A DNA stretch of 57,674 nucleotides, taken from positions 1 to 57,674 of IMG/VR virus record IMGVR_UViG_3300005913_000005. One strand, given 5' to 3'. Below, in pieces: positions 14,426-56,807 of the stretch. Below the pieces are notes generated by a model. It was not told where the DNA came from. It searched no databases and saw only the letters and a list, made by a program, of their open reading frames with translations. The position numbers were made by a program, and so were the translations under genes. The DNA comes from a virus. The number at the start of each line of letters is the position of its first letter. Position 1 is the stretch's first letter.

Positions 14426-14433
14426 TATTTATT
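14426..14433 (-). promoter_or_regulatory. Late promoter-like element upstream of the 203-aa virion gene
   Basis: AATAAATA followed by C on the minus strand, 22 bases before the ATG at 14404. It overlaps the stop codon of the giant gene, so the fibre block may be transcribed independently of it. Confidence 0.5.
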
Positions 14434-17400
14434 GCGGCACAGCCACTTCCTTTTGACGTATGAATCTTGCGATGTCATTTTCCGTCTGACTCAGTGGATC
14501 TGCTCCTGTTTGCCATATTTTACCTTGTTTTCTTACCAGCAAAATTTGGGCATTTTCGGCTGGTGTGTTAGTGAAAGTGATTACAGCAGTTGTACCTGAT
14601 ACACTAAAGTCTGCAGGCACTGTGCTATCTGCTTCTGGGCTGTCTTGCCCTAATGCAGGATCATATACACTGATACTATTTTTTCTCATTCTCTTACCAC
14701 CCACAAATAGTTCGAATTGGTTAACTGATGCTGGTGTAAAACCTATGTTAAGAGTGTTGTTTACTACATCTGCACCTGTATATGTTTCAGATATGAAAGA
14801 ATCTTGGTATGGTACATTTTGGAAAGCACTCTGATCGTACACATCAGTGTTGGCATGATGCACTTCTGCTATACCAGTACCAAATGTTCCACGTCTTAGT
14901 TGTTCTAGAGTGTTACCATCTTTTTTGTAGTACTCAATTCTTTCGCCATCTATGAAGACAATACCCGGCAGTTGTGAAGCCACACTAGGTTCTGTGATTC
15001 CAACACCGTCTATCAGCACAATTTTTTGATCATTCCATAATAAATTTTGTGCCAACGTGTACTGTTTGTCATCACCGATACGTTTGAAGTGAGTTCTGTT
15101 CATGATATCTTTAAATTGTCTGTAAGCAAACTTGCCTACAAAACTTGGAGCAGTGAAATGAATCACATCTATTTCGTCATTCTGCGACAACGTTCTGTTA
15201 ATTTTTAAATACATTTGATTGTTAGACACTGTGTAGTCCACACTAGGTGCTAACCATTCGCCATTTAAACACACCCAAACATATTGAGCATCAACAGCCG
15301 GTCTGTTTAGTTTTACAACACCATTTGTTAATTGATTGTATTGATAATAATCATCTGTGTTAACTGTGACTGTTAATTTTGCCACAACATCATATTGTGT
15401 TCTGTCAATGTCTTGCACATCGTGTTTACTAAATTGGTAAACAGTGATTGTGCTTAAATCTGTTGGAGCAGTTGTAAATGTAATCAGTCCACTGTCGTTC
15501 ACACTGTATTCTCCGTTTTCAATATACACATCCAACGTATCATCTGCAACACCCACACCGCCAGTTAATGTAATACTCGAATTACCTGGATTCCATCTGT
15601 ATTGACTGGACGTAAGTTCAACTTTATTTAGGTATGCTCTAACCTCTGAAGCATTAATTGTGCCTGGTAATACTTGCCAATTTTTAAATTCATATTCTCT
15701 TAATACACTCACAGTAAATTTTCTGTGGAATCCACTTCTTAAAACATCATTGTTAACTTTCACAATCACATTGTTTGTGAAAGGTGTTTGTGTGAAAGGT
15801 GTTTGATTCATTTGATATGTTGCTGTACTTCCGTCACCTGTAAAAGTGTCTTGAGTAACTTCGCTGAAAGATTGTGAAGCACTCTCATACACCACTATGT
15901 TGATATAACTGTCTGATGTGGGAGCGGAATTAAATCTAATTGCCACTCTGTTAGGAACAGCATAAGAAGAATCTGTTTCAATTACAGAATATGTAGCATC
16001 TTCGCCATTTACTTTTACAAAGGTTTGTATATTTCCTGCTTTGAATTTTGCTCTAGTTACATATTCAACTGTACTTCCGTCACCTGTGAATGCATCAACG
16101 TCAAGTATAGACTCTCCATTGTTACCCATTGTGATAAAGTTAATCTTATCACCCAGTGCTGGTGTTTGATTCAGGTTGATGTATTTGTCTTGGTAATTAA
16201 TTGTGAATTGATTTGTGTTGTACAAAATATTGTTAACACTTAAAAATATTGCTGTGTTACTTTGTGGTGAGTCCACAAAGTTAAATTCAGTTGTTGCACC
16301 GTCACCAATATAATTGTAACTGTTAATTTTACTACCCGAACTCTGACCTCTATCATACACTTGAATATCTAAAGTATCTAAAACTTGACCAGGTACAAAT
16401 TCTTCAGGACCTTTAGCAGAAGTTTCTGTTACAAATCCGTCACCATCAACATTTATGTCTTCTGCATTTATACCTTGTGCTGTTGAGTATGCCAAATCTC
16501 CACCTTTAATTAAAGTATCAACTATGGTTGGATCTGGTAAAAATGCTCCATCACTGGTAGATTTTCTTACAATAATTGTATCACCATTATCTGTTTCTAA
16601 CATACTGATATCAACAGTTTTTGTAGATCCGTCACCTTGTAGTGAATTCATTTGTGCTAAAATATTTGTAGGTGCACCAATATCAAATGCAGGATCATCC
16701 ACTCTTTGACCATTTTGATAAATGTGATATTCAATACCTGATGTTAGAGTGTTTGCTAGATTCAATGTTAATGTACTACCATCTAGATAGAATACTTCAT
16801 CTTCATAACTTTCATCAAATGTGTCCCATTCGCCTTGCAGATAAGGTTCATTGCCCCAACCTGAATTATTTTCAAATCCAATACTTCTCACTTCAACTCC
16901 ACCGTAATCTATACCATCAATCACCTGTGCTAATTCTTTTCCAGGCATTCCTGATGTTGGTTGATACAATGCAAACCTATCGGCAGTGTTTAACACATCT
17001 TCATTTATTTTGTAACTAATTGAAATTGTAGATAAATTTACTGGCGGTAAAACAAATTGAATATATCCTGTTTGTCTTGTATATGTTTTTGTTGTGTCTG
17101 TTTCATTTTTGTATACAAATGTGCTTTTCAATTGTTTTTTGCCTGCTACAAGAACAGTAATTGTGTTTGTGCGTAGATCCATTGGCCATTTTAATTTAAA
17201 TTTCAATTGACTGTTGTTACCTGTGAATGTTTCTGTTCTTTGTAAACTGGTAACGAACGTATCACCTGTGTTTCTGTCAAATTTTATTCCAATGTGAGTT
17301 GTACGAGGTAAACTTTCACCCAACACAGCACTTGCTTTGGCTAGAGTACCTGTTGTTGAACCACTTAATGTTACTGTTGGAGAAGAAATATATCCTGATC

Positions 17401-20400
17401 CACTGTTTGTAACATTTATTCTGTATACCACACCATTTTTAATATATGCTGTACCAGTTGCACCAGTTCCGCCACCACCTGTAATTTCAACAGCAGGAGG
17501 ATTAGTATAAGCAGTTCCACCATTGGCAATATTGATTGCTGTGATTTTGTAACCTATGTTGTCTTTCCAATTTTTATCTGGATATGTAGTGATGTTGTCT
17601 GCACCCACCAACTGATCGTTGTTGATTGTGACCTTAGATGGAGTTATTACACCATTGATATATTTTGGTGCATAATCAAAATCAGTTATTACAGAGTTTG
17701 TTAGTTCTGTTTTCTCATACGAACTGACATATTCTCTAATCTTAGATTTATATGGTTTAATTTCTTGTACATAATCTTCGTAATTTGATAGATTATCATT
17801 TTTAAATGTAATTTTCTGTTCTAATTGTCCAACATTGTGTTGAGCCTTAATAAAACTTGTTTTAAACACAAAATCATTCAATTTGTTTTCTGATAAAGCA
17901 TACTGAATACCAGCAAAGTACATTTTATTATACTCTATTGCTAATTCTTCTACAAATATTTTGTCTCTGATTGTCTCTAATATTACACGTGTTTCCTCGA
18001 TTGGTTGTCTGTCATACAGTTGAACATCGAAACTGTTTGAATCAAAACCTATGTTGCCACTGTACGCATACAAGTTATCCGAAAATTGAATTGTTCCATT
18101 TTGTCTTCCCACTGTTTGATAGTTCACCGTGTAATCAACATCTATTTGGTCATCAATTTTTTTCAACAGTAACCAACCACCAGATCCAATAGTTTCAATT
18201 TTTATAATTTGTCCTATACTGTCATCTAATGCATTTATTTCATAACTTTGTGATATCAAATGATCAATAGCAGTAATTTGACTGTAATCTGTTTCATACC
18301 AATCAGCATAACTCCAATACAGATTTACATTGAATGCTTGTATTTTTGTTTTCTGCCAACCATCGCCACTGTTGTAATCATATATTGCCCATTTTCCATC
18401 TACTGTACTGTCAGCAGTGACTAACGCACTAAATGTTCTTACTTTTATTGTTGCATCTTCTTTGTAATTACTACCTGCTTGTAAAATTTTAGCACTGTTG
18501 ATCGATCCATTAACATCGATTGTTAAACCTATCACAGCACCTTCACCTGTAATGCTTTTTATTTTGTACGTTGGTATTGATTTGTAACCTTTACCAGCAT
18601 CTGTTATTACAACATTAGAAATTTTTCCGTTTGTAACTGTGATGTTTAATGATGCAGGTTTAACTGATCCTACTCCTACAAAATTTAATTCATTTTCAGT
18701 GTCAACAGTTGTGTCAAATACTCCTGTGTTAATAGTTGGTGCTGGATCTGATTTTATTAAATTACTGATGTCAATTTCATCAACAACCAGTTTTGTTTTT
18801 AAAGAAGTATTAACTCTTTCAATTGTTTGTTTAAGTGCTTCTTGTTTATTAGCAAACCAACTCTGTCTTGGAGTTTGTAATGTACCATATTTTAATTTGT
18901 CACTTAAATTAGGGTCTGGTACAGGATTAGATTTTGAATCATATCCAATTAAACTGTCAAACCACACTGTTTCTATGTCTTTAGGCAGTATACTTGTAGC
19001 AGAACCTTGTGTTAGTAAAGCATATTCTTTATGAACATTATTTTTACTAGCAATCGTGTTCAATCTGAAACTAATAATTGTGTCATTACCTTGAATAAAT
19101 GAATCACAGTTTACAAGAGCAAATTTATTTTTGCCAAACACTGTTACATATTTGTAACCTTGAGCTCTTGGATCTTTAATTAAGTTTTCAACAGCATTGG
19201 CGCTTAATGTTCTTGTTTCTATTTCTGGTGTTGTTGTTTTGCTCTTAACCCAATAAAAATATCTATTAGATAACACTCCAGCAATTTTATCATAAACTTT
19301 TTTAATTACAAAGTCTGTTGTATTTTCAACTGTTCCTGTAATGCCTAATGCACTTCCTTCATTAGATTGACTAATAGTATTATATTGTGTAGGAGTGTAA
19401 GGTGAATTGATCCATTCGTGTACATCAATACTAGCACCTACAAATAATTTATTCCAATATGAATTATTAAAAATTATGTTGCTTTGATATGGATAATAAT
19501 ATGTTGCTTTGCTGATGTTCCACCATAATTTTCCTACCTGAGTATCATCCCAGTGATTGGTTGTATCCATTGTTCCTACTGCTGTAGAACTGTTGTACAC
19601 AGCCGGGTCATAATTTGTTTTGTATGAAATTTCAGATTCTGCTGGTCCAGGAATTTTTCCAAATATTGGATCAACGTAATCTAATGTTGTTAATAATTTG
19701 TTTGTCGATTTACTGTAAAGGAAAACTCCTTGTATTTTTGATAAGTCTGGTTGATCGATCCCTTCACTGCTTTGATGTATACTAGTCCAATTGAATTCCG
19801 TAGGTGATTTTCTAAAGTCTACCAATGTGCCCATTTGACTGTTGGCTAATTGTAGTTTAGGCAGTCCAACATAAACGTGATTGTTGTTGACCAACAAGTT
19901 CGTTCCAAATTGTTCTAAAGTGTCGTTGATGTAAGTGAATTTTTCACCATATAGTAATGTGTTTTCAAATTTTTGATACAGATGAATTGAACCCACATCT
20001 GATTGTATTTCAACAAATTTGGTCATTGTACCATCAAATACTGTTTGTCCATTATCAATAAGTGTCGATAATTGTTGATCGCCTTTTAATGACGTTACTG
20101 CTAGTACATCTCCACTAAACGACAGAGTATTTCCAAATTGTTCCGAAGTTTCTTTGCTTGGACTTACTAGTGTTTGATTTAATGTGTACTGTCCAGAATC
20201 GTTGTTAACTTTTTTGTAAACATATACTGATCCCATGTCTATGTCAACAACATCTTTCAACGGACTTCCAACAGCGATCAACTCACCGTCTCCTGATATG
20301 CTTATATCTGAACCAAAGTCAATTATTGGAGCAGAATCATCTGCAGGTGTTATTGTTTGTTTGTATGAATAGTGTCCGTCGCTTTGTCTGTACACAACAA

Positions 20401-23400
20401 CATTTTGACCATCATCGCTGTACTTGTTGGTTAACACAATGTTAATACCATTTGTATCAACGTCAAATGTGTTTGCAAATTTAATCAAGTTGTTTTGATT
20501 TAGAGTTGAATCACCTTGTAATTCAATACCACTGTCATTAGGTACATATCCTAAAAAGTCTGTGTGTGTATCTTGTAAATCCCATAAACTTAATTGCCAA
20601 GAATTTGCACTGATGTTTGTTTTTGCTTTGTATAACTGATTGCTAAACACAACTAATTCATCTTTTAGGTAATCAGTTTGATCATCAAACACGCCCATAT
20701 AATATTGATCAACACCCAGACGCCAATTTTTTGTAGCACTGTAATCTACAAAATAAATTTTTCCTGGTAAACTAGAAGTTCCATTACCTTCAGCACCAAT
20801 AAATGCTGTTGTAACATTTCCAACATCACGTAATTGAATTTTACTTCCTAACCTTAAACCACTTTGAGTGTCAGGCACAGTGTATGCTGAATTGTATTCG
20901 AACAGACCTTTTGTGTTCTTTTTGTAAATTAAAAATGCACCTTGATTGGTGTAAACACTCTGAACACCTTCCCCAATTGGAATATTGTATGTTTGGACCC
21001 AATCTCTGTTTTGGCTTCCTGGTATGTTAGCACTTTGATTGATTCCTGGTACATTTTCAAATTCGTCCCATATCCAGTACTCCATATCGTTAACTGTGTA
21101 GAAGTCAGGATTTCCAGATGCTGTAATAGATGATGTATGTTGGAAAACTAAAATGTCTCCGTCTGCATTTCCTGATTGAACTGTTTGTTCAATAGATCCT
21201 ATAGTTCTGTTTACACCTCCGCCTATTCTAGTGATAGTTGATGGTGCACTGGCATTAGATCCTAAACTGAACTGTTTGTTGTTTGAATTATTAAAGTAAA
21301 TTCTTATTTTTTCTAATCCTATAAACTGAACAAACGTAACATCTGCCTGTGCTTGAGTGTTAGGATCATATATTTGATGCACTCCTGCTGATGGGAAATA
21401 ATAATTTGCATTGTTGTCTGGCTGTGAATCTACATCAACATAACCTTCCCATATGTCTACTACTTCTTTAAGTCCATTTGTGTCGTCACTGTCAATATTC
21501 AATCCGGCAAAATCAAAAGCGCCTGAATCAACATTATTAAACCAAACACTTACGTAGTTGGTTGAATTGCTGGAATTTAATGTGCTGTCATGAGCTATGT
21601 CGTAACCTGTTCTTACAAACCATTTATTGCTTAAAATTGCTTGAGGACTTGGATTAGTGACCCATGTGTTTGATCCTGCGTCAATGTAATACTCTTGATA
21701 ATATGTTCCAATTCCAAATTGTGCTTTTACCAATGGTGCTTGAGGTGTCGTTGGAGCAATAGGTTGTTCCATTGAACTGAAAAATCTATTAGTGTCTCTA
21801 ACTTCATTTAATACTTTTATGTCTTGAATTACAATGTTGGTTGTAACATCTGATCCTGCATTTGTGGTTACATTAGCACCTATGTTTATTTTCCACCAAC
21901 CACCAAGGTAATCGTAGTCTTCTGAATTCACTCTTGAATACACTCCTATAGGCAATATATCCAAAGTTAAACTTCCGCTTTCAGCAAATACACCACTCAC
22001 ATCTTTAAGATATATTATAGATTTTGCGGCAACTTTTCTCACATACACCACAGTACCTTGTGCTGTGTCTGTGTTTAATAAATTTCCTACAACAGGATCT
22101 GTTAATGTGTTTGATACTTCTAAAATTTCGTCAATCTTTTCTTGAATAGGCATATCAGCACCGCTGAAAATATTGTTTTTAATTGTTGGAGAGTCAACTC
22201 CATTAAAAGGTTGATTCGCCACTTTAGCATAATTGTTTCTGTCTATTGGATAATCACTACTGAAATCAACATAATCTAATATCAGTCTGTCACCTATTTT
22301 AGTTGCTGTGTACTGTTCTGTGGATGCTCTTACCAGTATATGATCTGTTGTTTGATTTAGGAATACACTGTCGCCTATCAATAAACTTGTTGTTTGGAAT
22401 CCCACGTTCTCTTTGTAAAAAGCAGATGAATCAAATGTTGAGAATAAATCCTGTGCTATTGCACCTTCCACTTGATTGGTTGCTCTCCAAAGTTGTTGTT
22501 TGTACTGAACTATGTTTCCAACATTGTAATTAGAACTTGTACTGTACACTCCTTTGTACTCAGTTTTTAAATTACTGGCATCAGGTGCACCTATTACTAC
22601 AAAATTTCCATCTGGAGAAATGTCAACTGCTTTACCAAAACTACTGTCTGGTCCAAACAGATCGATATTTGTTAACAATGGATCAGTTGTTGGTGCTTCA
22701 ATAATTTGTACTAATATTAATGATCCGCTCTCAGAACCTCTTGTGAATACATAAATTTTTCCATCTTCATCTGATGGTTGACTGACCAATACTGTTGAGT
22801 TTTGTTTGTTTGCGGCTATCACTGTGCCAAAACTTTGATCTCCTGATATGCTTGTGGAACTTAATTCATTGTGTTTTTTAAACACAAATTTATTGTTAAC
22901 AATTTTCCATTTACCGTCATCTGATTCGTTAATCCAAAATTTTTCATTATCTTTAAGACCTTGATCATTTATTCTTGTGTTGACGTCATTTATAGAATTT
23001 AATCTTGATTCAGTGAATCGTTTAATAAAGCCTACAGCAGATTCAATTGAAGCAAATCCTTCCACGTCTTCACATTGAATTGATGTTATTCCTACAAACG
23101 TAGATTTGAAAACATAATCTGTACCATTAGCATTTACTACAAATATTTCACCAACTGCTATGTCTGGATTATTCAATGTGTTTACTGAAATAACACTTCC
23201 GTCTTTGATAATCGACACAATTTGTTGATCTGTGTTGCTGTATCTTAAAACACTCCAAATACCTTTGTTGTTACCAATCCACACATACTGTCCTTCATCT
23301 AGAGTTGCTACACTTGTTGAAGTTAATAAGTCATCATACTGTGCCAGTGTTAATGAAATATCTATCGGATTTACAGGACCTGCAGTTTTGATAAATGTGT

Positions 23401-26400
23401 TTTTGTCATACTTCACAGGAAATGGTGTGTGTTGATAATCTTTAGGTGCTAGATAAGTCTGTCCCGATTGTATTCTGTAAACCAAATCAGTTGCTGTTGC
23501 TGGTTGATCATTTGTTAGTAAAATAGGTTGAGGATTTAATCTAACTTGAGTTTCATCTAGACTGTATTCTACTTCGTCAAAGGTGTCCACTGCTCCGTAT
23601 TGTCCTTTACGGATTGCCCACTCTTCAAAAAATTCTAAACTTTCTTTGTCGGCACTTGCTAGTGCATCAAACAATTTGGTAAGAGCATTCGCTGTTCCTT
23701 TTTCTTTAATATATCCTTGATAAAATTTATATTGGCTGACTTCATCGTTAATAATATTACTTAGGTATTCTCTAGGTTGATAACCAATTAAATGTTGAGC
23801 AAGTTTTTGTTGTTGTCTATCAAAGTTATCTGTGTCTAAATCATAGAAATCAGCAAATTGATTTGTTTGATAATCAAGGTTTGATAACAAACTGCTTTCT
23901 GGTTTGTTGTCTAATTTACGCCAATTGTTATCATTAAATTCTGTTGTTCCTTTTAATTTTGTGTTTGCTGTGTAATAGAATTGTTTATGTTTTACCACAT
24001 CACTCATTGAGTAATCGGTGTAAGGTTCCCAAAGTACAACTTTTGCTTCATCAAACACAAATCCTGGAATGTTTAAACTACCATCCCATTCTGTAACATA
24101 TCCTAACATTTTAATTCTATCCTGCTTGTACCCACTTGCTGGATCATAAATTAAATCGTTAAATGATGTTGTGTTATCTATTAAACATACATGTTCTTTT
24201 TGTACAAGTGGAACTTTAGCAAAGTATATTCCATTTATTGTGTTCTTTGTGAACAATTCAAACGTGTTTGATTTCCTAACAATTCGTAAATTTACTCTAT
24301 CCAGTTTATTACCATCTTCTTTTAACACACCATAAGAGTAGTAATTTTCTATAACATTATCAGTTGTAGCATATTGTGATGTAACAACTATTTTTTTGCT
24401 GGCAGGACTTAAACTGATTACTGCACCTTCGTCCCAGTTTTGTGTTGTCCAAAATAAAAATTCTTTAGCACTTAATTGCCAGTTAGCAACCAATTGTGTT
24501 GTTGGATCATATTGATCAAATTCAAAACCTTTGGCTTTAAGATATGATTCATATCCCAGTATCACATCAACAACTGTTTGAATATCATCAAACACTGTTC
24601 CGTATGCAACAGACTGAACTGTATCTATTAAAAAAGTTTTTCTTAAAACAGCAGATGCACCGCCTTCAGATGGTAATTCTACTAACTTGATAAACTTTGA
24701 ATCATCAAAGTTTGCAGTTGAAATATGTGTTTCATCAGTAGCATAAAAATTGTCTGCATATTTTACATAAGACCCACTGTCATATCTTTTGTTTTCACTC
24801 CAATTAACAAATGAAGAACTAATTCCTCCCACTGTTATTACTGGATCACTAGTTTGTTCAAATGGAGAATGGTATCTAATGTAAGGATCATTTTTATCAT
24901 ATCCTTTTAAACTGAAGCCACTTGCTAACTTTTCAATAATTAATCCACTGTAGGTCAAAATTTCTACTGGTGTAGACACATTGTAAATCAGTTGATAGTT
25001 TTCTTCTGGTACAAATAGTGTTGTTGAATTTAACGGAGTTTTACTGTCTAATAACAGTTTAAATTTGTCTTTGTTGCTGTATCCTCTTACTTTAAAGCCT
25101 ATTTGTGTTTGTAATCCAGCAAACTGTTTTTTGTAATCTGCATAGTTTGTTGTTTGAGAATTTTCAACTATTTCATAAACATAGTTTAATAATCCAGCAG
25201 TCAATGTTACTGTGCTGTCATCAACACTGCTCGGCCAGATAATATCTGTAGGTCTTATAGCAGTTGATGAATTGTACACAATCTGTCCACTAGCATTTCT
25301 AGTAATTTTATTTGTGTCTAATCCTATACCTATTGCTTTGTTTGGTTGATGTAAAATATAACTTTTTAAAAGTGCAAACGGATAATGCACACTTCTTCTC
25401 CATGTGTTTTCTATAGGAGAATAATCACCAAACTTAAATTTGTCTTTGGTAAGTTGTAATACTTGTCCTCTAGCATATGCACTATCATACGGACTTCTGA
25501 TGTTGCCTTCGCTGTCCACTGGGATATTGTTTGTTAAACCGGGTCTTTTGTATTTGTTTTTGATTACAATTTTTTTATTAGGTTCTCTTACAATACCTTT
25601 CTCTAAATCTTGCCACAAAATTAAATTGTCTTTTGTGTACGGTGCTGGACCATAAACAGTTTCCCACCATGTAGGTTCTTGAGAATATCCAAGCATTTCC
25701 CATGGAGCAATATTTGGTCTGTCGGTGTCGTAAGCATGAGTGTACACACCTCTCCAGAATCCTAACAAGTTTTCATTTTGAGGAGAAACCATATTGCCGT
25801 AATTCCAAGTCAAACTGTTTTCTTGTGTGTGATAAGTGTTTGCTGTATAATCTTCGTTGCCTGTAAATGTTAACCAGTCATTGAAATCGCCCAATAATGT
25901 TTTATTAATTGATTCAAATGTAAATTTATTTGTGCTGTATGCTCTTGGCACAAAAGATTTAATACCAAACAATTCATCATCGTATGTTGTTTTAATATTG
26001 TTAAAAATTCTTCTCTCCATTTCCAATATAGCATCATCTCTAAAGTCATTGAATGCAACTATGATACTTCCGTCATGCCCTTGAATAACGTTCACTGGAG
26101 TAATTGCTGTTGTGTCTGAATAAATTTTAGGAGTGTATTTTGGATATAGTCCTAATTTGGTTGGTGTTGCTGGAATGTGTGATCCGTTAGTTGTTTCAAA
26201 CTCGTTAACCACAATGATATCATCTAGTGCAACTGTTTTCGTAACTTGAACAAATCCGTCAACAAATACATAATCAACACCATGCACTAACTGTGTATCG
26301 TTGTGATACACGTACACTGCTTTAGTTGATAATGCTGTTAAATTAAAGTCATTAGACAGTGCAAAAAATTTATTATCTATATCTAAAACTGTGTGTCTAG

Positions 26401-29104
26401 TGGTTTTGAATGCACCAATACCCAGCATGTCTGTTTGGAAATACGGTAATGAATTATTATTGTCTCTGTTGAGTTTAATTAAAATTTTATCAACCACTTG
26501 ACTAGGAGTTCCGTCAAATCCTAAATCGTCCATAGCACTAATAAATGATCTTTTGAATTTAAAGTAATCGTTTTGACTTCTAGTGATTGCTGAAATTAAG
26601 TTTACATCTTTGTTGTTTAACAAGTACGAAGCCAACACCATTGGTCCACTGTGTTGTAAAAATTTTCTACCGTATTGTGTTGCATTTGGGAAGTCTCTTA
26701 AATTGCTAAATCCCGGAGTTACACCTTGAATGTCTTTTAATTCATTAGTAATCGATTTAACATGATCAGTTACTTGCCCAACTGTGAATTTTGTTGTTTT
26801 TGCATTGAGTGGGTTGGATTGTAAGTTTGTTGGAAATTCATAATGACCATTACTGTTTTTAGGTGTTGCACTGCTTGTTCTAATTACAACTATATCATTA
26901 ACTGTTAAATCAGTAGTGAAATTAACATATGCTTCATTATTGATTCTTAAAATTGACCAGTCAGTATTTTCAATTTTTTTAACATTATTAACAAATACAT
27001 TCAGGTTTAGATCATTTAAATCGCCACTCTTTTTGTAAACGTCAATGGCAAAATCATTTTTCTGATTGTTAGATGCAACATACTGTCTATTAACTTTTTG
27101 AAAACTGTCAGTGGGTGCTTTGGTCCAACCATTTACTGTTGTAAAGTTGCCACTAGCATTGTATTTTTTCAAAAATGCTGTTTCAGAAGTTAAAGTTCCG
27201 TTGATATTTTGTGATTGATATGTGTAATTTTTGTTTAATAAATCAAAATCAAAAACAATATCTCCAATGTTTTCTACATTTGAATAAGTTAATGCAAATC
27301 CTAATTCAGTATCCACTGTGCCTGTACCTTCAACATAAGTGAATATTTTGTTACCCATAAACGAACTGTTAGGATACACAATACTGTCAGTGAAACTTAC
27401 GCCATTGCTATCAAACAAATCAAACAAAGGAGTTTGATTAACTTTATTTTTTACTTGTGCTGATTTCCATGTTGTTCCATTGTAATAAAACCATTTTCCT
27501 TGATTCGCATTTCCGTCAGTGGCCAAAATAGTTTCTCCTTGTGATGGAGAAGCATTTGCACTTTCAACCAAACTGATTTGAGTCGTAACTGTGGTTCCTT
27601 CAGTAAACTTAATAAATTTAACTTCAAATATTCTGTCTTTAACAAGAGGATCTGGATCAGCAGTAAACAACACCTTCATTCCATTTGTTAATGCAATGCC
27701 GTCAATGAAAAAACCTTGAGATCCTTCAACATCACTCATTACATCTGTTGTAACTGTGTCTATAAGATCAATATTTTCTTTCTTTTTAAAACCAAAATCA
27801 TATAGTTTGATGCCTGCTTCAAATTCAATGATAGGTCTTCGTGCTCTTGTGGCTTGATCAATGTTTGCAATTTGTCCGTTTGCTTTGGCACTTTCTTCTA
27901 TAACAGATTTATGAATCCATCTATTGGATCTACTCCAAGGATTTCTGTCTGGAGATGCTCTGTTTATAACAATGTAATCTTTATCAACAGCATACGATGT
28001 GGCTGTTCCAAATCCCACAGTGTCAAAGTTTTTTGAATCAAATGGAATTGGTGTTACATCAGTGAAAGCACTCTTTACTTCTAGTTCTTGTGCATTTATC
28101 AATTGAATTGCGTCACCCACACCTTCAACAAAATAATCTTTTTCAGCATATTCCACAGGTGTAACTGTGCCAGCAAAATTTATTTTCATACCATTTGATA
28201 ATGCTACTCCATCAGCAGTGGTGTAATTTTTTTTGCCTAATACTTCATTAGCAATATCTATTGTTGAATTTTCTTCAATGTCGTGTATTTGGATCAATCC
28301 CCAAGCATTAATATCGTTATCACTTCCGTAATATAGTTTTTCTGGTGCAGATTCTTTCACTTCAAAAGTTATAATTCCTTTTTCAACACTTTGCACATCG
28401 ATACCATCAGTAACATTGTACGAAGCATCTAGTATTCTTTGTGTTCTTATAACAAAAGGCAATCCTTCTGCATCAATATCAAACTTGTATGTTTGACCTT
28501 TGTATAATTTTAGTGTTGGGTTTGCTGTAAGCCCATTGGGCGTAAAGATGTAAGCATAGTTGTCTGATTGATCAGACTTTGTTACTGAGTATGTGCTAAT
28601 AACATTTCGCTGTTGTCCCGATATTGTAACTGTGGATGCACCATAAGGCATCCAAAAATATTCTCTGTAATTTACAAATTTGTCCCAATCGATTCTTGGT
28701 GACCAAGCATAATATTCTTGAGCATTAAGAACACTGTGATCAGAAACATCACCATTTAAATTTTGTATTTGATTAACAAAGTCTATGTAGTCTGAATAAA
28801 AGTTTACATTACCTAAATCGTCTTGTTGCACTATGCTGGGTTCAAATTTGTAATTTTCTCTATCAGCAGTTACTTCAGGCACATACAAATCAGATGCTTT
28901 GTAGGCATCTGTAATCTTACGTCCATAGTAAGCATTTAATTTTTCTAATGTTCCTTGAGATATTAGTTGGTCAACTGTGCTGTGTAAAAATTTGTTGTTG
29001 ACTGGAGTTCTAAAATACTTAGGTAAAAATTCTGAAGATTCTCTTTTACCGTCATCCTTGCCTGCAGGCAAACTGAAGTCTTTTTGATTGTTGTCGTATG
29101 CCAT
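14429..29104 (-). CDS. Giant virion structural protein (4,891 aa), probable baseplate/tail protein
   Basis: A single uninterrupted frame of 14.7 kb, about a quarter of the window. The N terminus (SSEFLPKYFRTPVN, then STVDQLISQGTLEKLNAYYG) matches the opening of very large structural proteins I associate with marine T4-like phages. FG-GAP/beta-propeller-like repeats occur near residues 2088-2165 (SSFGKAVDISPDGNFVVIGAP) and 2928-3070 (IDFGSDISISGDGELIAVGSP; QFGNTLSFSGDVLAV). Glycine-rich repeats lie near 3860 (GGTAYTNPPAVEITGGGGTG). A late segment near 4720-4760 (PGIVFIDGERIEYY...LRRGTFGTG) resembles a domain found in other phage appendage proteins. It sits immediately downstream of gp6 with a one-base overlap, where T4 has gp7-gp10, and no gp7, gp8 or gp10 is visible, so it may replace them (inference). 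Confidence 0.8.
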   Translation of the reverse strand: MAYDNNQKDFSLPAGKDDGKRESSEFLPKYFRTPVNNKFLHSTVDQLISQGTLEKLNAYYGRKITDAYKASDLYVPEVTADRENYKFEPSIVQQDDLGNVNFYSDYIDFVNQIQNLNGDVSDHSVLNAQEYYAWSPRIDWDKFVNYREYFWMPYGASTVTISGQQRNVISTYSVTKSDQSDNYAYIFTPNGLTANPTLKLYKGQTYKFDIDAEGLPFVIRTQRILDASYNVTDGIDVQSVEKGIITFEVKESAPEKLYYGSDNDINAWGLIQIHDIEENSTIDIANEVLGKKNYTTADGVALSNGMKINFAGTVTPVEYAEKDYFVEGVGDAIQLINAQELEVKSAFTDVTPIPFDSKNFDTVGFGTATSYAVDKDYIVINRASPDRNPWSRSNRWIHKSVIEESAKANGQIANIDQATRARRPIIEFEAGIKLYDFGFKKKENIDLIDTVTTDVMSDVEGSQGFFIDGIALTNGMKVLFTADPDPLVKDRIFEVKFIKFTEGTTVTTQISLVESANASPSQGETILATDGNANQGKWFYYNGTTWKSAQVKNKVNQTPLFDLFDSNGVSFTDSIVYPNSSFMGNKIFTYVEGTGTVDTELGFALTYSNVENIGDIVFDFDLLNKNYTYQSQNINGTLTSETAFLKKYNASGNFTTVNGWTKAPTDSFQKVNRQYVASNNQKNDFAIDVYKKSGDLNDLNLNVFVNNVKKIENTDWSILRINNEAYVNFTTDLTVNDIVVIRTSSATPKNSNGHYEFPTNLQSNPLNAKTTKFTVGQVTDHVKSITNELKDIQGVTPGFSNLRDFPNATQYGRKFLQHSGPMVLASYLLNNKDVNLISAITRSQNDYFKFKRSFISAMDDLGFDGTPSQVVDKILIKLNRDNNNSLPYFQTDMLGIGAFKTTRHTVLDIDNKFFALSNDFNLTALSTKAVYVYHNDTQLVHGVDYVFVDGFVQVTKTVALDDIIVVNEFETTNGSHIPATPTKLGLYPKYTPKIYSDTTAITPVNVIQGHDGSIIVAFNDFRDDAILEMERRIFNNIKTTYDDELFGIKSFVPRAYSTNKFTFESINKTLLGDFNDWLTFTGNEDYTANTYHTQENSLTWNYGNMVSPQNENLLGFWRGVYTHAYDTDRPNIAPWEMLGYSQEPTWWETVYGPAPYTKDNLILWQDLEKGIVREPNKKIVIKNKYKRPGLTNNIPVDSEGNIRSPYDSAYARGQVLQLTKDKFKFGDYSPIENTWRRSVHYPFALLKSYILHQPNKAIGIGLDTNKITRNASGQIVYNSSTAIRPTDIIWPSSVDDSTVTLTAGLLNYVYEIVENSQTTNYADYKKQFAGLQTQIGFKVRGYSNKDKFKLLLDSKTPLNSTTLFVPEENYQLIYNVSTPVEILTYSGLIIEKLASGFSLKGYDKNDPYIRYHSPFEQTSDPVITVGGISSSFVNWSENKRYDSGSYVKYADNFYATDETHISTANFDDSKFIKLVELPSEGGASAVLRKTFLIDTVQSVAYGTVFDDIQTVVDVILGYESYLKAKGFEFDQYDPTTQLVANWQLSAKEFLFWTTQNWDEGAVISLSPASKKIVVTSQYATTDNVIENYYSYGVLKEDGNKLDRVNLRIVRKSNTFELFTKNTINGIYFAKVPLVQKEHVCLIDNTTSFNDLIYDPASGYKQDRIKMLGYVTEWDGSLNIPGFVFDEAKVVLWEPYTDYSMSDVVKHKQFYYTANTKLKGTTEFNDNNWRKLDNKPESSLLSNLDYQTNQFADFYDLDTDNFDRQQQKLAQHLIGYQPREYLSNIINDEVSQYKFYQGYIKEKGTANALTKLFDALASADKESLEFFEEWAIRKGQYGAVDTFDEVEYSLDETQVRLNPQPILLTNDQPATATDLVYRIQSGQTYLAPKDYQHTPFPVKYDKNTFIKTAGPVNPIDISLTLAQYDDLLTSTSVATLDEGQYVWIGNNKGIWSVLRYSNTDQQIVSIIKDGSVISVNTLNNPDIAVGEIFVVNANGTDYVFKSTFVGITSIQCEDVEGFASIESAVGFIKRFTESRLNSINDVNTRINDQGLKDNEKFWINESDDGKWKIVNNKFVFKKHNELSSTSISGDQSFGTVIAANKQNSTVLVSQPSDEDGKIYVFTRGSESGSLILVQIIEAPTTDPLLTNIDLFGPDSSFGKAVDISPDGNFVVIGAPDASNLKTEYKGVYSTSSNYNVGNIVQYKQQLWRATNQVEGAIAQDLFSTFDSSAFYKENVGFQTTSLLIGDSVFLNQTTDHILVRASTEQYTATKIGDRLILDYVDFSSDYPIDRNNYAKVANQPFNGVDSPTIKNNIFSGADMPIQEKIDEILEVSNTLTDPVVGNLLNTDTAQGTVVYVRKVAAKSIIYLKDVSGVFAESGSLTLDILPIGVYSRVNSEDYDYLGGWWKINIGANVTTNAGSDVTTNIVIQDIKVLNEVRDTNRFFSSMEQPIAPTTPQAPLVKAQFGIGTYYQEYYIDAGSNTWVTNPSPQAILSNKWFVRTGYDIAHDSTLNSSNSTNYVSVWFNNVDSGAFDFAGLNIDSDDTNGLKEVVDIWEGYVDVDSQPDNNANYYFPSAGVHQIYDPNTQAQADVTFVQFIGLEKIRIYFNNSNNKQFSLGSNASAPSTITRIGGGVNRTIGSIEQTVQSGNADGDILVFQHTSSITASGNPDFYTVNDMEYWIWDEFENVPGINQSANIPGSQNRDWVQTYNIPIGEGVQSVYTNQGAFLIYKKNTKGLFEYNSAYTVPDTQSGLRLGSKIQLRDVGNVTTAFIGAEGNGTSSLPGKIYFVDYSATKNWRLGVDQYYMGVFDDQTDYLKDELVVFSNQLYKAKTNISANSWQLSLWDLQDTHTDFLGYVPNDSGIELQGDSTLNQNNLIKFANTFDVDTNGINIVLTNKYSDDGQNVVVYRQSDGHYSYKQTITPADDSAPIIDFGSDISISGDGELIAVGSPLKDVVDIDMGSVYVYKKVNNDSGQYTLNQTLVSPSKETSEQFGNTLSFSGDVLAVTSLKGDQQLSTLIDNGQTVFDGTMTKFVEIQSDVGSIHLYQKFENTLLYGEKFTYINDTLEQFGTNLLVNNNHVYVGLPKLQLANSQMGTLVDFRKSPTEFNWTSIHQSSEGIDQPDLSKIQGVFLYSKSTNKLLTTLDYVDPIFGKIPGPAESEISYKTNYDPAVYNSSTAVGTMDTTNHWDDTQVGKLWWNISKATYYYPYQSNIIFNNSYWNKLFVGASIDVHEWINSPYTPTQYNTISQSNEGSALGITGTVENTTDFVIKKVYDKIAGVLSNRYFYWVKSKTTTPEIETRTLSANAVENLIKDPRAQGYKYVTVFGKNKFALVNCDSFIQGNDTIISFRLNTIASKNNVHKEYALLTQGSATSILPKDIETVWFDSLIGYDSKSNPVPDPNLSDKLKYGTLQTPRQSWFANKQEALKQTIERVNTSLKTKLVVDEIDISNLIKSDPAPTINTGVFDTTVDTENELNFVGVGSVKPASLNITVTNGKISNVVITDAGKGYKSIPTYKIKSITGEGAVIGLTIDVNGSINSAKILQAGSNYKEDATIKVRTFSALVTADSTVDGKWAIYDYNSGDGWQKTKIQAFNVNLYWSYADWYETDYSQITAIDHLISQSYEINALDDSIGQIIKIETIGSGGWLLLKKIDDQIDVDYTVNYQTVGRQNGTIQFSDNLYAYSGNIGFDSNSFDVQLYDRQPIEETRVILETIRDKIFVEELAIEYNKMYFAGIQYALSENKLNDFVFKTSFIKAQHNVGQLEQKITFKNDNLSNYEDYVQEIKPYKSKIREYVSSYEKTELTNSVITDFDYAPKYINGVITPSKVTINNDQLVGADNITTYPDKNWKDNIGYKITAINIANGGTAYTNPPAVEITGGGGTGATGTAYIKNGVVYRINVTNSGSGYISSPTVTLSGSTTGTLAKASAVLGESLPRTTHIGIKFDRNTGDTFVTSLQRTETFTGNNSQLKFKLKWPMDLRTNTITVLVAGKKQLKSTFVYKNETDTTKTYTRQTGYIQFVLPPVNLSTISISYKINEDVLNTADRFALYQPTSGMPGKELAQVIDGIDYGGVEVRSIGFENNSGWGNEPYLQGEWDTFDESYEDEVFYLDGSTLTLNLANTLTSGIEYHIYQNGQRVDDPAFDIGAPTNILAQMNSLQGDGSTKTVDISMLETDNGDTIIVRKSTSDGAFLPDPTIVDTLIKGGDLAYSTAQGINAEDINVDGDGFVTETSAKGPEEFVPGQVLDTLDIQVYDRGQSSGSKINSYNYIGDGATTEFNFVDSPQSNTAIFLSVNNILYNTNQFTINYQDKYINLNQTPALGDKINFITMGNNGESILDVDAFTGDGSTVEYVTRAKFKAGNIQTFVKVNGEDATYSVIETDSSYAVPNRVAIRFNSAPTSDSYINIVVYESASQSFSEVTQDTFTGDGSTATYQMNQTPFTQTPFTNNVIVKVNNDVLRSGFHRKFTVSVLREYEFKNWQVLPGTINASEVRAYLNKVELTSSQYRWNPGNSSITLTGGVGVADDTLDVYIENGEYSVNDSGLITFTTAPTDLSTITVYQFSKHDVQDIDRTQYDVVAKLTVTVNTDDYYQYNQLTNGVVKLNRPAVDAQYVWVCLNGEWLAPSVDYTVSNNQMYLKINRTLSQNDEIDVIHFTAPSFVGKFAYRQFKDIMNRTHFKRIGDDKQYTLAQNLLWNDQKIVLIDGVGITEPSVASQLPGIVFIDGERIEYYKKDGNTLEQLRRGTFGTGIAEVHHANTDVYDQSAFQNVPYQDSFISETYTGADVVNNTLNIGFTPASVNQFELFVGGKRMRKNSISVYDPALGQDSPEADSTVPADFSVSGTTAVITFTNTPAENAQILLVRKQGKIWQTGADPLSQTENDIARFIRQKEVAVPQ

Positions 29105-44057: not shown

Positions 44058-44627
44058 TTAAACATTAGGATCAAATGATTCACAATCCAACCACACACTG
44101 ACATCTGGTTCCGCTGACGCAACGTGTTTCAACTTGGTGTGACTCCAGTTTCTAATCTCTAATTCTTTTAATACTGATTCCGAATACACATGAACAACAT
44201 CTGGTTCCAATTTCAATATCTGTTTGATGGCTGAAGGATCTGGTTTCGATTCGTAAGTCTGTATGGCAGTAACTTCTGGTATGGCACGAAAATCTCTGGC
44301 GTACTTGTCTCCGTGGAGCCAAGTGAGTGGGCCTGTGTTTTTGGAACGCAGTTTTAAATCGTTGGCTGTGTGTCGCCAATGAATATTATTTTCTGCGAAG
44401 CCCGCCGCCACAAGGCGGTTATAAGTCTTGGATCCCACCGCATACACTTTTTGTTCCAACAGTTCTGACAGACTGTGTGCATAATGATTGATGGCTTCGA
44501 TGTGGGTGATGATCAGTGCTTGTGCATCTGCAGGAGAGTGTTCAACGGTGGCAGTTTTAAGACAGGGAATCCAGAGGTCGTCTTCATCCAGCTCTTGGGG
44601 TCGCACAATTTGTGTGTAAATTTGCAT
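44058..44627 (-). CDS. hemD: Uroporphyrinogen-III synthase-like protein (HemD family)
   Basis: A 189-residue protein with the HemD domain order: ALIITHIEAINHY (37-49, the 'TSANAV' position), KVYAVGSKTYNRLVAAGF (60-77, the hallmark AVG..T...L...GF), LTWLHGDKYARDF (100-112, the 'GxxxRxxL' position), TYESKP (123-128) and PDVVHVYSESVLKEL (141-155, the 'TSPSxV' position). The family closes and inverts ring D of hydroxymethylbilane to give uroporphyrinogen III, the precursor of haem, sirohaem and cobalamin. It is shorter than usual (about 240-260 aa), and HemD is known to be very divergent, so activity is uncertain. No Shine-Dalgarno is evident; a CTAAATAAT late-like motif lies at 44634-44642. A hemB homologue lies 10 kb away in this window. 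Confidence 0.75.
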   Translation of the reverse strand: MQIYTQIVRPQELDEDDLWIPCLKTATVEHSPADAQALIITHIEAINHYAHSLSELLEQKVYAVGSKTYNRLVAAGFAENNIHWRHTANDLKLRSKNTGPLTWLHGDKYARDFRAIPEVTAIQTYESKPDPSAIKQILKLEPDVVHVYSESVLKELEIRNWSHTKLKHVASAEPDVSVWLDCESFDPNV

Positions 44628-53499: not shown

Positions 53500-54672
53500 A
53501 TGTCAGAACTAACAGAAACTCGCTGGCAGGATACAAAGAGTGCGTTACTAGAAGGCCTAACTGGAAATAAAAAAGCAGTTATGGCTACAACTTTGGAAAA
53601 TACTAGACAGTATCTTTCAGAGTCGGCAACAGCAGGTGCTACATCTGCCGGTAACGTTGCAACTCTAAACAGAGTGATCCTACCCGTGATCAGAAGGGTT
53701 ATGCCTACTGTAATTGCTAACGAATTGGTTGGAGTACAACCAATGACTGGCCCAGTTGGACAAATCCACACACTAAGAGTAAGATATGCAGAAGCGGCAA
53801 CATCAGGCGGCGGACTAGCGGCAGGGGCTGAAGCATTATCACCATTTGCAATTGCACAAGGTTATTCAGGTAACGATGTAGCAGATCCAAATGGTAATGC
53901 AGACGCAACAGCCACTAAAGAAGGAAGTGGTGGTAGAGCAATGTCAATCCAAATCTTGAAACAAACTGTTGAAGCAAAAAGCAGAAAGTTACAAGCAAGA
54001 TGGACATTTGAATCTGCTCAAGACGCACAAGCTCAACAAGGTATTGATGTAGAGGCTGAAATCATGGCGGCATTAGCACAAGAAATTACTGCTGAAATCG
54101 ACCAAGAAGTCATCAACTCATTAAGAGCTTTAGCGGCTGATGAAGAAACATTTAACCAAGCGGCTGTATCAGGAACTGCAACTTTTGTAGGCGATGAACA
54201 TGCGGCATTGGCTGTGTTAATCAACAGAACAGCAAATAAAATTGCACAAAGAACAAGAAGAGGCGCAGGAAACTGGGCTGTGGTATCACCACAGGCTTTA
54301 ACTGTACTTCAATCTGCAACAACTTCAGCGTTCGCAAGAACAACTGAAGGTTCTTTTGAAGCACCAACTAACCAAAAGATGGTTGGAACTTTAAACAGTG
54401 CAATGAAAGTATATGTTGACACATATGCGGCAGACGATACGTCTGTATTGGTAGGATACAAAGGCTCATCTGAAGCAGATGCGGCGGCGTTCTATTGCCC
54501 ATACATTCCGTTAATGTCTAGCGGTGTTGTGCTTGACCCATCAACTTTTGAACCAGTTGTTTCTTTCATGACTAGATATGGTTATGTAGAGTTAAACAAC
54601 ACAGCATCTTCACTAGGAAATGCTGGGGACTATGTTGGTAAAGTTACTATGTCAAACATTTCGTTTGCATAA
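53500..54672 (+). CDS. gp23: Major capsid protein gp23
   Basis: A 390-residue protein. LNRVILPVIRRVMPTVIANELVGVQPMTGPVGQIHTLRVRYA (about 57-98) is the conserved gp23 signature, and the C-terminal SGVVLDPSTFEPVVSFMTRYGYVELNN is equally typical. It is shorter than T4 gp23 (521 aa), like other marine versions. Two gp21-type (L/I)xE sites are visible near the N terminus, LLE16-18 and LSE39-41; the latter, just before the Ala/Thr-rich stretch, is the more likely cleavage point (inference). A GGAG ribosome site precedes the ATG and a strong terminator follows 24 bases after the stop, as suits the most abundant virion protein. Confidence 0.97.
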   Translation: MSELTETRWQDTKSALLEGLTGNKKAVMATTLENTRQYLSESATAGATSAGNVATLNRVILPVIRRVMPTVIANELVGVQPMTGPVGQIHTLRVRYAEAATSGGGLAAGAEALSPFAIAQGYSGNDVADPNGNADATATKEGSGGRAMSIQILKQTVEAKSRKLQARWTFESAQDAQAQQGIDVEAEIMAALAQEITAEIDQEVINSLRALAADEETFNQAAVSGTATFVGDEHAALAVLINRTANKIAQRTRRGAGNWAVVSPQALTVLQSATTSAFARTTEGSFEAPTNQKMVGTLNSAMKVYVDTYAADDTSVLVGYKGSSEADAAAFYCPYIPLMSSGVVLDPSTFEPVVSFMTRYGYVELNNTASSLGNAGDYVGKVTMSNISFA

Positions 54673-54695: not shown

Positions 54696-54720
54696 AAAGG
54701 GGGCTTCGGCCCCCTTTTTT
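54696..54720 (+). terminator. Strong intrinsic terminator after the capsid gene
   Basis: AAAGGGGGC-TTCG-GCCCCC followed by six T. A GC-pure stem with a UUCG tetraloop and U tract is the textbook form, and it separates the late head operon from the following sigma70-driven operon. Confidence 0.96.
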
Positions 54721-54740: not shown

Positions 54741-54769
54741 TTGACTTTTATACCAAAATGTAGTATAAT
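54741..54769 (+). promoter_or_regulatory. Sigma70-type promoter of the lipoprotein-hemB operon
   Basis: TTGACT (54741-54746), a 17-base spacer and a perfect TATAAT (54764-54769), 20 bases after the capsid terminator. The expected start point near 54776 precedes an AAGGA ribosome site and the ATG at 54798. Confidence 0.88.
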
Positions 54770-54797: not shown

Positions 54798-55001
54798 ATG
54801 AAAAGTATTGCAATAATAATATTATCTTTCTTCATAGTATCTGCTTGTTCTATTAAAGAACCAAGACTATCATTTGGAAAAAAATGTTCAATGACTGATG
54901 ACAACATCACTTATTCGTATGTTTGGATCTATGATAAAAACACTGGTCTGCCAGCAGACGAAGAACAGTGTGCGGCACTTCCTAAAAAAGAAGAGAAGTA
55001 A
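54798..55001 (+). CDS. Small predicted lipoprotein
   Basis: A 67-residue protein from the ATG at 54798; an upstream in-frame start would lie inside the promoter. MKSIAIIILSFFIVSAC is a lipoprotein signal peptide: a Lys-containing n-region, a hydrophobic core and the lipobox V-S-A-Cys17. The mature 51-residue part (SIKEPRLSFGKKCSM...VWIYDKNTGLPADEEQC) has two more cysteines that could form a disulphide. It would be anchored in the host envelope after signal peptidase II cleavage. It is the first gene of the operon with hemB, only 4 bases before it. Possible roles are superinfection exclusion, an envelope change or a spanin-like part; none is demonstrable. Confidence 0.78.
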   Translation: MKSIAIIILSFFIVSACSIKEPRLSFGKKCSMTDDNITYSYVWIYDKNTGLPADEEQCAALPKKEEK

Positions 55002-55005
55002 TCAG

Positions 55006-55809
55006 ATGGACTTAATCCAGCCATTGTTTGTCAACGAAAAAGGCAGAACAGAAACGGCTGGATTAGGTGCTGATAACAGCAGTTGGTCCGAATCCTTAAT
55101 AGAAGACAGAATTCAAAAAGACATAGACAAAGGTGTAGACAGTTTCTTGCTGTTCATAACACCAGAACATAAATCTTGGACTCCTGATTGGAGTTTTAAT
55201 CAAAGAATTGTAAATCAAATAAAAACAAAATTTCCCAACATACAACTGATTGTGGATGTGTGCTTGTGTGCCTCTTTACCAGATGGGCATTGTAGAGTGA
55301 TGGACAAACCAGACACCAGTGAAGCACTGTTGATTGATTTGGGTAAGAAATTAAAATCTGCAGGTGCAGACATATTGGCTCCTTCAGACATGGGAGAACG
55401 CACAGTTCAAAATTTAAAATCAGAAACTCACAGTGAAGTGATGGCATATGTAAAATACCGCAGTGTGTTTTACAGTTCTTTTAGAGATCTAGCAGACAGC
55501 ACACCCACCACCAGCAGAACATACCAACTGCCTGTTGACAATGATTGGGGCATGATTGCCACAGCCAATCAATACAAAAAACAAAAAGCAGATTACTTGT
55601 TGCTGAAACCAGGACAACACAGTTTACATAATTTAAGCATGATAAATGCAGGATCTTACATTCCGGTTGGAGTGTATCAAGTGGGAGATGAATACAAAGG
55701 ATTGCCCACACTGCAACACCAGATTGAAATATCCAAAGTGTATAAATCAGCAGGTGCAAAATTTTTAGTAACATACGGAGCCAGAGACTTGATTGGTCAA
55801 TTGGATTGA
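55006..55809 (+). CDS. hemB: Porphobilinogen synthase-like protein (delta-aminolevulinate dehydratase, HemB)
   Basis: A 267-residue protein with HemB motifs in order: LIQPLFV at the N terminus; IVDVCLCASLPDGHC (82-96) with Cys86, Cys88 and Cys96 at the three zinc-ligand positions; AGADILAPSDMGERTV (about 122-137); AYVKYRSVFYSSFR (147-160) with Lys150; DYLLLKPG (196-203) with Lys201; YQVGDEY and KFLVTYGARDL near the end. Lys150 and Lys201 match the two Schiff-base lysines, so catalysis looks possible. The reaction joins two 5-aminolevulinates into porphobilinogen. The usual N-terminal arm of about 50 residues, which mediates octamer formation, is missing, and the substrate-binding Ser of 'VSGEY' is Gly here. 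The start at 55006 replaces a longer reading that would overlap the lipoprotein gene. Family: strong; activity: inferred. Confidence 0.88.
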   Translation: MDLIQPLFVNEKGRTETAGLGADNSSWSESLIEDRIQKDIDKGVDSFLLFITPEHKSWTPDWSFNQRIVNQIKTKFPNIQLIVDVCLCASLPDGHCRVMDKPDTSEALLIDLGKKLKSAGADILAPSDMGERTVQNLKSETHSEVMAYVKYRSVFYSSFRDLADSTPTTSRTYQLPVDNDWGMIATANQYKKQKADYLLLKPGQHSLHNLSMINAGSYIPVGVYQVGDEYKGLPTLQHQIEISKVYKSAGAKFLVTYGARDLIGQLD

Positions 55810-55810
55810 T

Positions 55811-56083
55811 ATGGAACACGAAAAAATATTATTAGAATTCAAAGAATACATGGACAGACTGCAAGTATGGAAGACCAGTCATGGCATATTCATCAACGAT
55901 ATCAAAAAATTAGAAAACACTCTGAACAAAATGTATGATGAATACACCACTATTTTGATAGATTACCGTAGAACCAAGAAAGATAGATACCTAGAAGAAG
56001 CCAGTTCTGTGCTCATAGAAGCCATCGATCTAGCAAAAAAATTCTCAAAAGTAGAACTGATAGCATCACTCAGCAAACGATAA
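55811..56083 (+). CDS. Small coiled-coil protein
   Basis: A 90-residue, highly charged helical protein (LLEFKEYMDRLQVWKTSHG, KKLENTLNKMYDEYTTILIDYRRTKKDRYLEEASSVLIEAIDLAKKF). I start it at the ATG at 55811, one base after the hemB stop; a TTG at 55793 would overlap hemB. It is probably co-translated with hemB. No family is recognised. The end overlaps the GATAAATA late-like motif of the next gene. Confidence 0.65.
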   Translation: MEHEKILLEFKEYMDRLQVWKTSHGIFINDIKKLENTLNKMYDEYTTILIDYRRTKKDRYLEEASSVLIEAIDLAKKFSKVELIASLSKR

Positions 56084-56174: not shown

Positions 56175-56807
56175 ATGGGAAGACCAATTAACAAAAAACA
56201 CATTGGTGATGGAGCAGGTAAACTTCAAGTAACTGCGGTTAAATTCGCGGCAGGTGGAGAAATTACTACTGAATCACATATTGTGTCACAAAGATCAACA
56301 AACAAATTTATTGTAACTGATGGATCAAAAACAGAAACTTGTACACTTGTAAACAAGTCAATCGGTGGTGTAGGTGCTGGTGCTTTAGGCGCAGGCGAAT
56401 TTTGCATTAACGTAACTGACAGTGACGGTGTTACAAAACAAGTTACTAAACTGTACAACAGAAAAATGCAACTTGAAGGCGCAACTAGACACGTATGGAC
56501 TAGAGATGCTGACGGTTTATCTGATGCAGTTGAAAAAGTTATTTCAGGTGCAACACAGGCAGATCCATGTGTTATCACAGCAACTGGACACGGCTTCAGC
56601 AACGGAGATAAAGTATCTATCCGTGGCGTAGTTGGCATGGTTGAGCTTAACCTTGAAACTGCATACACAGTAGCAAACAAAGCAACTAACACATTCGAAT
56701 TAACAGGAATTGATAGTATAGGCTTTACTGCATACGGTAGTGCTGGTGTGGCAACTAAAGCGGCAGTAGGCGCAGGCAACATTGTTGTTGACGCTCAAGC
56801 AACTTAA
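56175..56807 (+). CDS. Virion structural protein with FCCH-like domain
   Basis: A 210-residue protein, Gly/Ala/Thr-rich and beta-type. The C-terminal region PCVITATGHGFSNGDKVSIRGVVGMVELN...YTVANKATNTFELTGIDS (about 131-185) is the small phage domain often annotated as 'ubiquitin-activating E1 FCCH-like', common in phage decoration and fibre proteins; it has nothing to do with ubiquitin. It is probably a capsid decoration or neck/appendage protein. It has its own late-type promoter motif, a structured leader and a terminator, so it is a single-gene, perhaps highly expressed unit. Confidence 0.65.
   Translation: MGRPINKKHIGDGAGKLQVTAVKFAAGGEITTESHIVSQRSTNKFIVTDGSKTETCTLVNKSIGGVGAGALGAGEFCINVTDSDGVTKQVTKLYNRKMQLEGATRHVWTRDADGLSDAVEKVISGATQADPCVITATGHGFSNGDKVSIRGVVGMVELNLETAYTVANKATNTFELTGIDSIGFTAYGSAGVATKAAVGAGNIVVDAQAT

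Follow-up and report, generated by a model that had tools for sequence, protein, structure and literature searches.

A marine phage contig of 57,674 nt (positions 1 to 57,674 of IMG/VR record IMGVR_UViG_3300005913_000005; hereafter, the window) encodes on its plus strand an armless homologue of HemB, the porphobilinogen synthase (PBGS) of the ALAD family, in a frame of 267 aa with the ATG at position 55006 and the stop at 55809. HemB is an early enzyme in the synthesis of haem and vitamin B12. That the product is a genuine ALAD/HemB-family protein is confirmed by the searches described below and, judging from its sequence and setting, the gene quite probably specifies a functional-type PBGS and acts as an auxiliary metabolic gene of a large T4-like aquatic phage. 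The protein is not an isolated oddity; it is one member of a viral clade.

The Pfam family ALAD (PF00490) was matched with an E-value of 2e-40 (139 bits, cut-off 24.6), residues 2–262 of the window HemB being aligned to positions 26–314 of the profile, that is, to nearly the whole catalytic domain. The two best NCBIfam models were both for porphobilinogen synthase (E = 3e-36 and 5e-28), each scoring well short of its equivalog cut-off. The score against the NCBIfam PBGS equivalog, 125 bits, lies below the cut-off of 297 bits, and the protein is therefore filed in a divergent clade of the ALAD family, with its function deduced from residues and context. A phmmer search of the PDB retrieved 24 distinct chain sequences, every one of them a PBGS; the viral HemB profile again gave 24 matches, with E-values down to 1e-43. 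The cellular enzymes (HemB/ALAD, PF00490; for example, Escherichia coli 1B4E, human 1E51 and Pseudomonas aeruginosa 1W5P) have the TIM-barrel ALAD fold in common with it: all of the top 50 Foldseek matches in the PDB to an AF2 model of the window protein (small alignment; mean pLDDT 62, pTM 0.69, low confidence around the active-site lid) were PBGS structures, at a probability of 1.00 and a TMq of ~0.7. The original prediction, made from the sequence alone, had assigned the frame to this family, and both the ALAD profile match and the PBGS-type fold on which it had staked that assignment were found.

The screen of viral contigs for hemB next to gp23 that it had suggested recovered dozens of relatives in IMG/VR, 40–100% identical to the window copy and in most cases flanked by gp23 and a small ORF. 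Their best cellular (bacterial) matches are at most about 32%, and typically about 30%, identical. An unrooted tree was built from 51 distinct viral HemBs and the 29 cellular ones closest to the viral profile. A single branch (SH-aLRT 100, stem length >1) divides all the viral sequences from the cellular ones, so that in the proposed phylogeny the viral HemBs stand apart. They are also shorter (263–284 versus 323–350 aa). All 51 viral sequences keep both lysines, the three cysteines, Asp128, Arg160, Arg171, Gln174 and Tyr257 (window numbering); zinc-type cysteines at the positions of Cys86, Cys88 and Cys96 occur in every viral sequence, versus 14 of the 29 cellular ones.

Alignment with the P. 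aeruginosa PBGS shows that Lys150 and Lys201 of the window protein correspond to the Schiff-base lysines K205 and K260, and Cys86, Cys88 and Cys96 to the metal positions 129, 131 and 139. The A-site residues Arg160, Arg171 and Gln174 and the P-site Tyr257 are retained as well, and this whole set (two Schiff-base lysines, A-site Arg/Arg/Gln, P-site Tyr and the zinc Cys3 site) is shared by cellular PBGS and viral HemBs. The main weak point of the window copy is Gly227, which occupies the position of the P-site serine present in 50 of the 51 viral and in all 29 cellular HemBs. The earlier statement that the catalytic residues are kept was thus correct for the lysines and cysteines, and extends to the A site and Tyr257, but it had missed this substitution. 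Because Gly227 replaces the P-site serine, there is less certainty about the activity of the window copy itself than about that of its relatives. One may suppose that the clade is enzymatic while the window protein, degenerating, is inactive or much reduced in activity; the glycine, found in identical contigs of one population, points that way. We consider this unlikely. The dN/dS values of the window hemB relative to its relatives (0.15–0.23) are similar to those of other close pairs (0.05–0.17), the frame is free of stops and frameshifts, and all other key residues are retained, including Tyr257, the other P-site carboxylate ligand. Judged by these ratios, the window's HemB subclade is under purifying selection.

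The N-terminal arm is missing, as had been noted at the outset: three residues precede the LIQP block in the window protein and one to three precede the LIxP block in all viral HemBs, versus 27–50 in the 29 cellular ones. An apparent further in-frame start at 54898, from which part of the arm would be regained, was discarded, since it overlaps the lipoprotein-like ORF that precedes hemB and since several relatives have a stop in frame just upstream. An arm-restoring start was also excluded in the L048–L055 group, where the ATG follows the promoter by only 35 nt, too short a distance for an arm. Going by this promoter pattern, the transcript is expected to begin close to the ATG, which would fix the start codon and make the arm truly absent there. 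Since the arm is wrapped around the adjacent subunit in the octamer of cellular enzymes, the armless protein is probably a smaller oligomer, and it would then be free of assembly-linked control.

The same phage encodes, on the minus strand (44058–44627), a protein of 189 aa that, from its modelled fold and profile matches, looks like a HemD-like (uroporphyrinogen-III synthase-like, U3S) protein. A Pfam scan of the window matched HEM4 (PF02602) at this position (E = 3e-5) with 23.7 bits, below the gathering score of 27.5; 24 of the 27 members of the HemD-like family matched HEM4 at E-values up to 0.01 (best 1.7e-5), and three NCBIfam U3S models agreed weakly. It is shorter than usual U3S (HemD) proteins and had no match by sequence in the PDB, whereas over its whole length the fold of a medium-confidence model matched U3S: the only PDB matches under 1e-3 were 3MW8, 3P9Z and 3RE1 (probability 1.00, TMq 0.44–0.49). 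PHROGs contain no profile for either the viral HemB or the HemD-like protein. When contigs were searched with the family alignment, the HemD-like gene was found in every syntenic hemB-carrying contig for which coverage of the region was confirmed, including two of the freshwater group, but in none of the 11 hemB-free relatives. It is also present, at 38% identity, in a more distant phage with hemF-hemB.

Additional genes of the haem pathway are found in related phages. The order hemF-hemC-hemE-hemB is present in L325–L336 and was checked with Pfam in L326 and L333/G044; the coordinates of this four-gene operon are L326:2257–5852 and, for L333/G044, L411:4655–8181. G044 further encodes AlaS (L411:15840–17042; E = 6e-132 to Rhodobacter AlaS), a haem oxygenase (L409:13964–14506) as well as NrdA/NrdB, a ligase and baseplate proteins, all of T4-like type, and may be the phage with the fullest haem pathway observed so far. 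On another contig with T4-like helicase and primase, genes for OMP decarboxylase, hemF, hemB and haem oxygenase are adjacent or overlapping (L056:6564–9372), with overlaps of a few bases between the tetrapyrrole genes. Clusters of hemE-hemF-hemC are carried by L393 (1774–4267, Pfam-checked), L394, L395, L399 and L400. Some phages with such clusters share the gene order of the window in its 39–46 kb region, the cluster being located between the counterparts of the window genes at 41240 and 43244; hemB was not found on their partial contigs. A 134-kb contig with hemB and a HemD-like gene (G001) also encodes an alternative oxidase (L419:9913–10524; PF01786, 1.3e-80). Alternative oxidase is a haem-free terminal oxidase.

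The company of these genes bears on a different role for the armless protein, in which it would co-assemble with the host HemB or sequester 5-aminolevulinate (ALA) and so lower host haem synthesis. Such a decoy or dominant-negative protein would be in keeping with the missing arm of all viral copies and with the lost P-site serine of the window copy; moreover, HemC, HemE and HemF of the phage's own were not found in the window's group, whose contigs are all partial and in which HemL, an AlaS-type protein and haem oxygenase were likewise looked for and not found. However, a decoy has no need of the catalytic and metal residues, including both lysines, that are kept in 51 of 51 viral sequences, and elsewhere members of the clade are encoded in operons with working-type downstream enzymes. 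Mixed oligomers are, in addition, unlikely at only ~30% identity to cellular HemB. An inhibitory role therefore seems improbable to us, and an active enzyme remains the preferred reading.

The window contig belongs to a T4-like phage, as judged by Pfam and PHROG profile matches to genes for the portal, head protease, gp23 and baseplate hub. The upstream neighbour of hemB is gp23, encoding the major capsid protein (53500–54672, plus strand; PF07068, 1.3e-99). Its closest counterparts among isolates, 64–69% identical, are from the T4-like jumbo phages (Sinorhizobium phage Phosso, Vibrio phage 2.275.O, GAP32 and PA5oct), in which the order of head genes is similar. No gene annotated as hemB was seen beside gp23 in Phosso, 2.275.O and GAP32, and tblastn with HemB gave no match in any of the four. 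The capsid gene is followed by a strong intrinsic terminator (54696–54717, plus strand; GGGGGCTTCGGCCCCCTTTTTT), an element also present in most close relatives, which separates it from the hemB unit. Downstream of the terminator there is a sigma70-type promoter, TTGACT-17-TATAAT (54741–54769, plus strand), which by pattern agrees with the consensus at 11 of 12 positions and is the best of eight promoter-like sites of the region; most close relatives have one at a similar position (11–12 of 12). The predicted promoter thus stands, with one amendment: it precedes a 67-aa lipoprotein-like ORF (54798–55001, plus strand), and hemB is therefore the second gene of the unit. The 67-aa ORF had no match in Pfam or PHROG, and in several relatives its place is taken by small ORFs of 65–75 aa.

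Directly 3' of hemB lies an ORF of 90 aa (55811–56083, plus strand; DUF6664 at 0.004, weak and under the cut-off). It follows hemB in those syntenic loci that reach so far, was not found in most hemB-free gp23 relatives, and might be a partner of HemB. The gene at 56175–56807 encodes a tail-like protein (E1_FCCH domain, 3e-11) that varies between otherwise close relatives (28–100% identity). Elsewhere in the window, the minus strand carries genes for two adjoining radical SAM proteins, one with SPASM (910–2977), and a single ORF of 4891 aa (14429–29104) that probably encodes a giant structural or tail-related protein. G044 also has radical SAM-like genes similar to this pair, as does G001 close to its end; an ORF of 4890 aa, of a similar kind to the 4891-aa one, is likewise present in G001 (L418).

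The predicted location of hemB beside gp23 in a phage recurs across relatives. That this position is fixed over a broad phage group, and that hemB diverges faster than the adjoining head proteins (41% identity versus 77–78% for gp23 in the freshwater group), might suggest that a TIM-barrel protein was repurposed as a component of the head or virion. We regard this as very unlikely: a terminator and a separate promoter lie between gp23 and hemB, the active-site residues are conserved, and hemB is missing from most gp23 relatives, including 11 of their larger contigs. In some other phages, moreover, HemBs of the viral clade are encoded at a distance from the head genes, either close to replication genes or within haem operons. 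Host contamination or misassembly, in which a bacterial hemB came to lie inside a viral contig, can practically be dismissed: such errors occur, and a few 'phage' database matches are host-like fragments, but recurring synteny (the order gp23, hemB, small ORF is repeated in dozens of independent contigs) and phylogeny (the proteins group solely with other viral ones and share no more than about 32% identity with any bacterial match found) rule it out for the window. The HemB matches to 'phage' records in INPHARED were set aside as apparent host DNA: they include short records lacking annotation and an Acinetobacter record with an ordinary hemB, and in OR844993 the matches of HemC and HemB type are separated by about 1.7 kb, as in a bacterial hem cluster.

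Our literature search covered open-access papers and turned up no report of phage HemB, HemC, HemD, HemE or HemF, which falls short of proof that none exists. The one paper found (Wegner et al. 2024, PMC11480375) describes a phage 5-aminolevulinate synthase gene (valaS) occurring with hemO and pcyA/X, and hemB, hemC and hemD do not occur in its main text. In E. coli, the phage AlaS was able to complement an ALA auxotroph, and the authors proposed that phages sustain the haem supply for respiration (PMC11480375). Like viral hemB, valaS is a tetrapyrrole gene of aquatic phages, marine and freshwater, whose viral sequences stand apart from the bacterial ones; it was found together with hemO (PMC11480375), and G044 of the HemB clade holds both AlaS and HemO. 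HemB differs from it in acting at a later step, and the window phage in belonging to a jumbo-related T4-like group with fixed gp23–hemB synteny.

Taken together, the clade-wide conservation of residues, the promoter and terminator and the hem-gene partners suggest that the gene is probably an auxiliary gene of tetrapyrrole synthesis, as originally proposed. If so, the sigma70 promoter behind the capsid terminator would allow the host RNA polymerase to transcribe hemB independently of the late capsid genes, presumably early in infection. The residues present are consistent with the condensation of two molecules of 5-aminolevulinate to porphobilinogen, in which Lys201 would act at the P site and Lys150 at the A site, and the three cysteines would bind zinc. 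The HemD-like protein would act two steps after HemB, the host HemC filling the step between, and the two phage proteins may maintain the supply of uroporphyrinogen III during infection, and through it the synthesis of haem, sirohaem or cobalamin. By analogy, HemB and HemD placed around the host HemC may fit the logic of sustained haem supply advanced for the phage AlaS (PMC11480375). A broader proposal, which we put forward tentatively as a serious possibility short of a probable one, is that aquatic T4-like phages jointly hold nearly the whole haem trunk (AlaS, HemB, HemC, HemD-like, HemE and HemF, plus haem oxygenase), with subsets in each lineage, and that their HemB is a viral-only, armless, active and sub-octameric form which escapes the assembly-based control of PBGS.

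Phage tetrapyrrole genes are already known as a kind; what appears to be new is the armless viral HemB clade, together with phage operons that cover the mid-pathway steps. Among the phage tetrapyrrole genes known so far, haem oxygenase with the bilin reductases constitutes the exit end. The phage AlaS stands at the entry end (PMC11480375). The middle is filled by HemB and the HemD-like protein described here, and by HemC, HemE and HemF in relatives; with mid-pathway genes present, phages may drive the route from ALA to the haem precursor. Aquatic phages thus appear to take over far more of the host haem pathway than was known before, and the part that haem supply plays when marine bacteria are infected becomes directly testable. 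The armless HemB clade, in turn, is a natural experiment on why cellular PBGS has an arm and an octamer.
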